This document shows positions 14,167 to 33,097 of a DNA stretch of 64,000 bases, in pieces. Below the pieces are notes generated by a model. The model made no database searches, had not been told where the DNA came from, and worked only from the letters and a program-made list of their open reading frames with translations. Source of the stretch: Burkholderia seminalis DSM 23518 (GTDB lineage: Bacteria > Pseudomonadota > Gammaproteobacteria > Burkholderiales > Burkholderiaceae). Where the stretch lies: contig NZ_CADFDK010000005.1 in NCBI RefSeq assembly GCF_902832885.1, positions 1 through 64,000 of the forward strand. The letters run 5' to 3'. The stretch's first letter is position 1. Each line of letters starts with the position of its first letter. The position numbers and the translations under genes are program-made.

Positions 14167-14175
14167 TCGCCGCTC

Positions 14176-14315
14176 ATTGGGGAGTAGCCGCTCCGCTCGA
14201 TGTCCCGCGCCCCCGGCGCGCATCGTGACGGAGGCGTCCGTCAACAGACTTGGCCGTTCGGCCATGGCGGACGCAGCCACGCTGGCCTGGCGAGACCGAT
14301 GGTTCACAGTGCGCC
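14176..14315 (+). ncRNA. yybP-ykoY manganese riboswitch
   Basis: The leader holds the conserved pieces of the yybP-ykoY class in order: GGGGAGTAG at 14179-14187, GTCAACA at 14240-14246 and the second internal loop GCGAGACC around 14290-14297. GC-rich arms, which can pair, lie between them. This class binds Mn2+ at the docked loops and turns on Mn export genes. The gene behind it is a UPF0016 exporter, one of its best-known partners. The exact boundaries are estimated. Confidence 0.85.
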
Positions 14316-29458: not shown

Positions 29459-29662
29459 TCAGACCGCCTGGATATTCGCTGCCTGCTTGCCTTTCGGCCC
29501 GACTTTGACGTCGAACGAAACACGCTGGTTTTCCTTCAGCGTCTTGAAGCCGTCCATCCGGATTTCGGAAAAGTGCGCAAACAAATCTTCACCACCATTG
29601 TCCGACGTAATAAAACCAAAACCTTTAGCATCGTTAAACCATTTCACGATACCGGTATCCAT
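29459..29662 (-). CDS. Cold-shock domain protein (CspA family)
   Basis: 67 aa: [20 protein letters not shown] with both RNA-binding motifs, KGFGFI (RNP1) and DLFAHFSEI (RNP2). It is an RNA chaperone binding single-stranded nucleic acid. The start at 29662 fits the family; five upstream codons are non-conserved. The promoter predicted at 29779-29808 gives a leader of about 110 bases, as in cold-inducible csp genes whose leaders refold with temperature. Confidence 0.94.
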
Positions 29663-29778
29663 GTCTTCGTTCCCCACTCGATTAGATCAAAAAAGCTATT
29701 TTTATAGCCGTTTCCCGAAATCCCGAAACATTGCGCCAGCACCCGCACCAGCACGCCGCCCGAGGACGGAGTGCTGAC

Positions 29779-30055: not shown

Positions 30056-30322
30056 ATGTGGCTGGACGGAATCAAGCGCTTCGCGAGCCGGCTCGGACGC
30101 GTACGCCGCAAGTCCCGCGCCCTGGCCGAGTCCGCGCGCGAAGCGCCGTGCGACACCGAATTCGATACGACCTGGCACGGCGACCACTGGCAGAACCTGC
30201 TCGCCTCGCCACTGGATGCCCGTCACTACGTGATGGAAGACTGGACCTATACACCGCCGCCGACCGATGCCGAGGAAGCCGCGCCTGCGCCCAAGCGCAA
30301 GCGGCGCTCGTACGCGCAGTAG
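30056..30322 (+). CDS. Small hypothetical protein, 88 aa
   Basis: It begins MWLDGIKRFASRLGRVRRKS. There is a strong ribosome site (GGAAGGAGAGG) just before the ATG. The sequence is an Arg-rich amphipathic N-terminus, a central region 'TWHGDHWQNLLASPLDARHY' with several Trp/His residues, and a Pro then Lys/Arg-rich tail (KRKRRSYAQ). There is no signal or membrane span. No family is recognised. Its stop lies 19 bases from the terminator of a convergent candidate small RNA. Confidence 0.65.
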   Translation: MWLDGIKRFASRLGRVRRKSRALAESAREAPCDTEFDTTWHGDHWQNLLASPLDARHYVMEDWTYTPPPTDAEEAAPAPKRKRRSYAQ

Positions 30323-30340
30323 CGCACGGACCGGCGGGGC

Positions 30341-30425
30341 AAAAAAAAAGCGCGACTGGGAAGTCGCGCCGACAAAGGTTTGGAGATCTTTTCCGTCAAC
30401 GAAAAAGTCTGCTTCGGAAAGCAGA
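30341..30425 (-). ncRNA. Candidate ~85-nt small RNA with porin-targeting seed
   Basis: Read on the minus strand from ~30425: hairpin 1 TCTGCTT-TCCG-AAGCAGA (30425-30408); hairpin 2 CTTTTTCG-TTGA-CGGAAAAG (30407-30388); an 18-base unpaired stretch (30387-30370); terminator hairpin GCGCGACT-TCCC-AGTCGCGC (30369-30350) followed by nine T. No protein frame fits. The unpaired stretch holds TCTCCAAAC (30386-30378), perfectly complementary to the Shine-Dalgarno region GTTTGGAGA (30804-30812) of the porin gene on the opposite strand. Promoter, structure and target match agree with a trans-acting regulatory RNA. Expression is not shown. Confidence 0.65.
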
Positions 30426-30431
30426 GATCGC

Positions 30432-30440
30432 AGTATAGCA
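30432..30440 (-). promoter_or_regulatory. Extended -10 promoter for the small RNA
   Basis: Minus strand TGCTATACT is an extended -10 element, placed so that transcription starts at the first base of hairpin 1. A -35 element is not evident, as is usual for extended -10 promoters. The remaining gap to the porin gene holds nothing else I can name. Confidence 0.6.
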
Positions 30441-30819
30441 AGAGAACAACCTTTCATTAGCCATGCTCCACACAAACCTCTATTGCCGATGTGTCAATAA
30501 TCGCGCTACGGCCTCCCTCGCCGGCCGCTGACCAGGTGTCGCGATCGCGCAACGCCCGTTACGGAGTCCTGAACGCCATTTTTCTTCGCTGCACCGCCGC
30601 AAACCCTTGATGTGCAACCGTTTACGCGCATCCCACGATCTTTGCGGATTCCAAAATACATTATTGCTTAAAGCGTCACCCTCCTCCGCTTCACGCACTC
30701 CGCACACTGCAGATGGCTTTCTGACAAGCGCACCGCCGCTCTGCCGGTCACAGCGTCACGCACATCAGCCCGGTCCGGCAGCAGGTTCGATCGACATCAT
30801 CCTGTTTGGAGACAGATCC

Positions 30820-31965
30820 ATGAAAAAAACCCTGATCGTCACCGCGTTGTCGGGTGTATTCGTTACCGCCGCACACGCACAAAGCAGCGTGACGCTATAC
30901 GGCCTGATCGACGCCGGCATCACCTACACGAACAATCAGGGCGGTCACAGCGCCTGGCAGGAAACGAGCGGCTCGGTCAACGGCAGCCGGTGGGGCTTGC
31001 GCGGCACCGAGGATCTCGGCGGCGGCCTGAAAGCGATCTTCACACTGGAAAACGGTTTCGGCATCAACAACGGCGCGCTGAAGCAGAACGGCCGCGAGTT
31101 CGGTCGGCAAGCGTTCGTCGGCCTCGCGCACGACAGCTACGGTTCGCTGACACTGGGCCGGCAATACGACAGCGTCGTCGACTACCTCGGGCCGCTGTCG
31201 CTGACCGGCACGCAATATGGCGGCACGCAGTTCGCGCACCCGTTCGACAACGACAACCTGAACAATTCGTTCCGGATCAACAATTCGGTCAAGTACCAGA
31301 GCGCGAACTACGGCGGCCTCAAGTTCGGCGCGTTGTACGGGTTCTCGAACTCGACGGCGTTCGCGAACAACCGCGCCTATAGCGGCGGCGTGTCGTACAG
31401 CTACCTGGGGTTCAACTTCGCCGCGGCCTACTTGCAGCTGAACAGCGACGTGAACGCGCTCGCGCAGGCCGCATCCGATCCGGGCGCGGTGACCGGCGAC
31501 TGGACCTTCGCGTCGCGCGTGCAGCGCACCTGGGGGGCCGGCCTGAATTACGGCTTCGGCCCCGCCACGGTCGGCTTCGTGTTCACGCAGACGCGTCTGA
31601 CCGGCATTCGCGCGATCAGCGCGGGGCAATCCGGCGTGTCCGGCGGCATCACGGGCCTCGGCGGCACCGCGCGCTTCAGCAACTATGAAGTCAACGGCCG
31701 TTACGCGTTGACGCCGGCCCTGTCGCTCGCCGGCTCGTACACGTACACGCAGGGGCGCCTGGCCGGCGACAAGCCGACCTGGCACCAGTTCAACCTGCAG
31801 GCCGACTATGCGCTGTCGAAGCGCACCGACGTCTATCTGCAGGGTGAGTTCCAGAAGGTCAACAACGACGGCCTCGACCTCGGTGCCAACATCAACGGGC
31901 TCGGCGCCGCCTCCTCGACCAACAAGCAGATCGCGGTCACGGCCGGCATGCGCCACCGCTTCTGA
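30820..31965 (+). CDS. Gram-negative porin (OmpC-like, Burkholderia type)
   Basis: 381 aa. The signal peptide is cleaved after AHA (MKKTLIVTALSGVFVTAAHA-QSS). The mature protein starts with SSVTLYGLIDAGITY and has alternating barrel strands, 'GSRWGLRGTEDLGGGLKAIF', the constriction loop 'PLSLTGTQYGG' and a C-terminal Phe (MRHRF), as in trimeric 16-strand porins. It is a general diffusion channel of the outer membrane. The ribosome site TTGGAGA (30806-30812) lies within the predicted target of the divergent small RNA at 30341-30425. Confidence 0.93.
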   Translation: MKKTLIVTALSGVFVTAAHAQSSVTLYGLIDAGITYTNNQGGHSAWQETSGSVNGSRWGLRGTEDLGGGLKAIFTLENGFGINNGALKQNGREFGRQAFVGLAHDSYGSLTLGRQYDSVVDYLGPLSLTGTQYGGTQFAHPFDNDNLNNSFRINNSVKYQSANYGGLKFGALYGFSNSTAFANNRAYSGGVSYSYLGFNFAAAYLQLNSDVNALAQAASDPGAVTGDWTFASRVQRTWGAGLNYGFGPATVGFVFTQTRLTGIRAISAGQSGVSGGITGLGGTARFSNYEVNGRYALTPALSLAGSYTYTQGRLAGDKPTWHQFNLQADYALSKRTDVYLQGEFQKVNNDGLDLGANINGLGAASSTNKQIAVTAGMRHRF

Positions 31966-32739: not shown

Positions 32740-32816
32740 GCGGCTGTAGCTCAGTTGGATAGAGTACTTGGCTACGAACCAAGGGGTCGTGGGTTCGAAT
32801 CCTGCCAGCCGCGCCA
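32740..32816 (+). tRNA. tRNA-Arg (ACG anticodon), copy 1
   Basis: 77 bases. Acceptor GCGGCTG pairs with CAGCCGC. The anticodon loop CTACGAA gives ACG, read as ICG after A34 deamination. The T-arm is GGGTTCGAATCC and CCA is encoded. It is identical to the two copies downstream. Confidence 0.97.
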
Positions 32817-32882
32817 CTTTTTCGAGGGCCTTCCCAACCGAAGGCCCTTTCAGTTCGAAGCAGTAGAAGTTTTGTTTTGCGT

Positions 32883-32959
32883 GCGGCTGTAGCTCAGTTG
32901 GATAGAGTACTTGGCTACGAACCAAGGGGTCGTGGGTTCGAATCCTGCCAGCCGCGCCA
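32883..32959 (+). tRNA. tRNA-Arg (ACG anticodon), copy 2
   Basis: Same 77-base sequence as copy 1. The 66-base spacer contains GGCCTTCCC...GAAGGCCC, a weak hairpin after a T run, followed by TTTTGCGT directly before the tRNA. Confidence 0.97.
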
Positions 32960-33020
32960 CTTTTTTGGGGGCCTTCCCATCGCAGAAGGTTCCGACAGTT
33001 GAAGCAGTACCGTTTTGCGT

Positions 33021-33097
33021 GCGGCTGTAGCTCAGTTGGATAGAGTACTTGGCTACGAACCAAGGGGTCGTGGGTTCGAATCCTGCCAGCCGCGCCA
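33021..33097 (+). tRNA. tRNA-Arg (ACG anticodon), copy 3
   Basis: Same 77-base sequence as copies 1 and 2. The spacer to copy 2 is 61 bases and shares GGCCTTCCCA, GAAGCAGTA and TTTTGCGT with the first spacer, which shows the unit arose by tandem duplication. Confidence 0.97.

Follow-up and report, generated by a model that had tools for sequence, protein, structure and literature searches.

Genes and features at the locus

The window (the whole stretch of 64,000 nucleotides analysed, from Burkholderia seminalis DSM 23518) carries on its minus strand an 85-nucleotide sRNA, NcS25 (30341..30425; Rfam family RF02869, ncS025), which is supported by a full-length Rfam match, by its fold and by covariation. 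A small hypothetical protein gene converges on it from the plus strand (30056..30322) and gave no Pfam match at an E-value of 0.001, and beyond that gene lies a minus-strand frame (29459..29677) whose sequence we read as cold-shock-like (CspA-type). On the other side of the sRNA, a plus-strand porin gene (30820..31965; Porin_4 according to Pfam) occupies by synteny the position of BCAL3008 (PMC10117139, Table 1) and is not a shown target of the sRNA. The order cold-shock-like gene, hypothetical gene, ncS25, porin is that of the published neighbourhood, in which ncS25 is located between BCAL3007 (hypothetical) and BCAL3008 (porin) and a cold-shock gene is the next neighbour past the hypothetical gene (PMC10117139).

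Two other features were found elsewhere in the window by Rfam, a yybP-ykoY manganese riboswitch (14167-14288, plus strand, 65.7 bits) and three successive tRNA-Arg (acg) genes (32740-33097, plus strand), whose identical scores were noted and which are perhaps recent copies.

The -10 hexamer of the sRNA promoter, TATACT (30432..30437, minus strand), is present in 61/61 same-genus genomes. The sequence-only reading of this locus had described an extended -10; the hexamer stands, but the TG preceding it (TGCTATACT) occurs in 1/61 of these genomes and is thus private to the B. seminalis genome studied here. A promoter scan returned no sigma-70 site at the scan threshold.

The predicted fold of the sRNA (minimum free energy -29.2 kcal/mol, z -3.44, equalled by 1 of 200 shuffled sequences) consists of hairpin 1 with 7 bp (30408..30425), hairpin 2 with 8 bp (30388..30407), an open stretch of 17 nucleotides (30371..30387) and a terminator hairpin of 9 bp with its T run (30341..30370), all on the minus strand; both 5' hairpins appear in the fold and in the structure projected on the alignment described below, and the terminator in a sequence scan and the fold. 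The open stretch, as seen in sequence and fold, contains the anti-Shine-Dalgarno (SD) seed TCTCCAAAC (30386-30378). Sequence and fold agree with the 5' end at 30425, located at a hairpin, and with the 8-bp second hairpin, as had been proposed; the open stretch does precede the terminator but measures 17 and not 18 nucleotides, and the nine T claimed for the terminator are there (30349-30341), the first of them being base-paired in the fold. Two minus-strand frames with TTG starts, of 174 and 64 amino acids, run across the sRNA. Both are probably fortuitous, as such frames arise readily where G+C is high, and their presence qualifies the earlier statement that no protein frame explains the element. 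On the plus strand (30338-30385), the terminator hairpin is followed by CGACAAAGG and no T run, so that termination of the converging gene at this site looks weak.

Identification as NcS25

A scan of the whole 64 kb with Rfam matched RF02869 (ncS025, 'Burkholderia sRNA 25') at exactly 30341-30425 on the minus strand, with 114.2 bits (the gathering cut-off of the family being 46), an E-value of 5.6e-20 and coverage of model positions 1-85 of 85. The whole-model score thus lies well above the cut-off of the family, the gene is flanked by a hypothetical gene and a porin gene, a cold-shock-like gene following past the hypothetical one, and the seed is complementary to the SD of a BCAL3473-type porin, the orthology of which is proposed below. 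The sRNA is therefore the already described Burkholderia NcS25, an ordinary known sRNA. The expectation of a real sRNA with its own terminator was borne out by the three-hairpin fold and the end-to-end Rfam match, whereas an equivalent, of which the sequence-only reading knew none, has already been described (PMC5688073, PMC10117139).

According to the published accounts, ncS25 was mapped in 2017 by dRNA-seq and Northern blot (PMC5688073), its start in J2315 being seen by dRNA-seq. Table 1 of that paper lists it with 85 nucleotides, a minimum free energy of -29.6 and a 3' end obtained via dRNA-seq, and its Northern probe gave two bands, the shorter of which was missing in the deletion mutant. 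NcS25 was characterised in 2023 in B. cenocepacia J2315, with a length of 84 nucleotides (PMC10117139), and a review, PMC10987360, belongs to the same NcS25 and Burkholderia literature.

Distribution and structural conservation

RF02869 was found in 61/101 genomes of a first set, all 61 from the same genus and none among the 40 genomes from outside the family, and in 163 of 299 family genomes (153 over the cut-off), representing 8 of 25 genera; both searches used stricter filters, with which weak matches are lost. The 14 control genomes gave no RF02869 match in either search. The seed region of the sRNA, TCTCCAAACCTTTG, is invariant in the 61 same-genus copies.

Covariation was assessed on an alignment of 35 sequences (34 distinct) made up of copies from 20 genomes of other genera in the family and 15 of the 61 same-genus copies. 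The fold of the sRNA projected on this alignment was kept in 95.8% of the cells, each stem in at least 95% and hairpin 2 in 95.0%. Both sides had changed in 9 of the 24 base pairs, compared to a mean of 2.8 in shuffled alignments, none of 500 of which had as many, and to 1-5 for slid structures; these figures lean to the fold, as the shuffles ignore relatedness and a single row of the alignment supplied the structure. Covariation in the three stems, which had been suggested as a check on the element, was thus found. RNAalifold returned stems 1 and 3, with hairpin 2 absent.

The match to the adjacent porin

The 9-base antisense match reported from the sequence is real: TCTCCAAAC (30386-30378, minus strand) lies opposite GTTTGGAGA (30804-30812, plus strand), a short way ahead of the ATG at 30820 with which the porin begins. 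When the open stretch was shuffled, a match of at least 9 nucleotides at the adjacent-porin start was reached in 20 of 20000 cases, and in 162 of 20000 when the anti-SD core TCTCC was kept, so for the adjacent porin taken alone the match is unlikely to be due to chance. With regard to the caution that anti-SD seeds are more easily matched by chance, a 9-nucleotide match to the open stretch is nevertheless present at 3 of the 44 porin starts of the genome, two further porins having the same 9-nucleotide word ahead of their start. The pattern GTTTGGAGA-N3-12-ATG has 8 occurrences in the genome and its reversed control has none.

Among 60 same-genus genomes, the perfect match to the adjacent porin is at least 9 nucleotides long (9-10) in 44, 8 in one and 5 or 6 in 15, the porin starts having been set by inspection in five cases (L002, L007, L019, L030 and L049). 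The number is 60 and not 61 because a tblastn search with the adjacent porin, covering 3085 bases around the locus, found no porin beside the sRNA in one genome (G056, locus L001). Loss of the seed match with the flanking gene conserved had been named as evidence against a role of the sRNA at this porin; such loss is seen in 16/60 genomes and the match is kept in 44/60, with which a lineage-limited effect on the adjacent porin would still be compatible. In two genomes the porin beside ncS25 itself appears altered: it looks disrupted near its start in G018 (L019), and only its first 90 residues match in G001 (L002). The sRNA of both differs by at most one base despite this.

An unlinked porin as predicted target

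The profile PF13609 detected 44 porins in the genome, and their pairing with NcS25 was ranked by energy with limited windows, opening costs for both RNAs and a corrected start for one porin (L110), the porin starts being called by script and a few of them doubtful (e.g. L116 and L081). The best predicted partner was L071 (G000:C5:517460-518608), a porin of 383 amino acids located 487 kb from the sRNA on the same contig, with -19.8 kcal/mol, 7.5 kcal/mol ahead of the second porin (-12.3 kcal/mol). The adjacent porin ranked 20th of 44 with -6.6 kcal/mol, opening costs included, and was paired over the 9-nucleotide seed only. A cruder ranking, based on long optimal duplexes and with the wrong L110 start, also placed L071 at the head, by 0.2 kcal/mol only, and the adjacent porin 38th of 44. 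Within the 17-nucleotide open stretch, the perfect match of L071 is 8 nucleotides long, versus 9 for the adjacent porin and two others. The lead of L071 arises because its pairing extends into hairpin 2, opening it; according to the prediction, the 5' arm of this hairpin pairs with the beginning of the target coding sequence. The pairing predicted for L071 spans -14 to +16 on the target, the interval printed by the program (-15 to 17) including unpaired ends. This is the span published as predicted for NcS25 and BCAL3473 in B. cenocepacia (PMC10117139), and the reported length of BCAL3473 is likewise 383 amino acids. On the basis of length, pairing span and rank, L071 is likely the BCAL3473 orthologue.

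Ahead of the L071 orthologues, TGGAGATC is present in 60/60 genomes and TTGGAGA in 57/60, and the perfect matches to the sRNA are 8 to 13 nucleotides long. One genome (G058) keeps NcS25 without a clear BCAL3473-type orthologue; it was left out of these counts because its best match has 65% identity, although its neighbouring porin was counted above. TTGGAGA is still found ahead of the start of this 65% relative (L194, G058:C3:151214-152413). Where the neighbouring porin has drifted and an orthologue was counted, the unlinked porin keeps the seed match, as one would predict were the seed maintained through this porin; additional targets may also be compatible with such a pattern. A 7-nucleotide perfect seed at the SD of BCAL3473 has been reported for all genera harbouring ncS25 (PMC10117139).

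Interpretation

We consider it very probable (about 0.95) that the element is NcS25 acting as a known trans-acting Burkholderia sRNA which represses an unlinked porin, BCAL3473 in J2315 and here likely L071. The published evidence from J2315 is that deletion of ncS25 significantly increased a single one, BCAL3473, of six predicted targets assayed by qPCR (83-fold in planktonic and 27-fold in biofilm culture), and that native NcS25 complemented the mutant whereas a version altered in the pairing region did not (PMC10117139). A translational reporter in J2315 showed a small effect of NcS25 according to the same paper. In the proposed mechanism, NcS25 is transcribed from its own promoter and stops at its own terminator, its single-stranded seed TCTCCAAAC would pair with the SD of the unlinked porin mRNA, the pairing would then spread into the coding start and open hairpin 2, and translation would thereby be blocked and the porin mRNA lowered. 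The identity, structure and conservation of NcS25 were established here computationally, as was the predicted pairing span in this genome; from these we infer that it acts in B. seminalis as in J2315, with seed pairing coming first and extension second, and any use of Hfq would likewise be presumptive.

Repression of the adjacent divergent porin through the 9-nucleotide SD match, alone or as a second target, had been the central proposal for this locus. In its favour, the match is rarely reached by shuffled sequences, is perfect over 9-10 nucleotides in 44 of the 60 related genomes, lies entirely within the open stretch and is one nucleotide longer than that of L071; moreover, the 100 best NcS25 targets predicted by CopraRNA include 14 porins, and BCAL3008 is termed a putative target by the authors of the 2023 study themselves (PMC10117139). 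However, BCAL3008 mRNA is reported there as not significantly altered in the ncS25 deletion mutant, in planktonic or biofilm culture, while the unlinked BCAL3473 rose 83-fold, so that the description of the sRNA as divergent from its target is not supported. The energy rank of the adjacent porin (20/44, or 38/44 in the cruder ranking), the shorter match in 16/60 genomes and the genome devoid of a porin at this place, all with an invariant sRNA seed, and the same 9-nucleotide word before two other porins argue in the same direction, so we regard this explanation as improbable. A narrower form of it, by which NcS25 would also tune translation of the adjacent porin in the strains that keep the match, with the mRNA level unchanged, seems equally improbable; if true, such translation-only tuning would have been missed by the published qPCR (PMC10117139).

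That the hairpin is the mere terminator of a neighbouring gene, with no RNA made, is extremely unlikely. The terminator is indeed described as bidirectional and common to the converging hypothetical gene (PMC10117139), but for J2315 the record includes a start mapped with dRNA-seq and a band on the Northern blot that disappeared on deletion (PMC5688073), and this published Northern blot refutes a terminator without an RNA for that strain. Here, the -10 hexamer found in 61/61 genomes and the paired changes in the three stems speak against it as well. Trans-acting NcS25 is thus retained, and the locus illustrates that a real sRNA can be recovered from raw sequence alone, whereas choosing its target by proximity and a 9-nucleotide anti-SD match is unreliable. 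The addition made by the 61 genomes is small: complementarity to the invariant seed persists more steadily at the unlinked porin than at the neighbour.

Comparison with known systems

MicF and MicC of enteric bacteria are trans-acting sRNAs that pair at the ribosome-binding site of porin mRNAs. NcS25 works alike without being a member, the scan of the whole 64 kb having given no match to the MicF and MicC families of Rfam at the gathering threshold. The suggestion of a MicF/MicC-type logic is therefore sound as regards a porin-repressor family with pairing predicted at the SD, and is not supported as regards the adjacent porin, which is not a shown target. With respect to NcS25 of B. cenocepacia J2315, nothing notable differs apart from the TG before the -10, which none of the other genomes among the 61 carries, and the two are alike in the full-length match, the three hairpins, the gene neighbourhood, the seed and the predicted pairing span.
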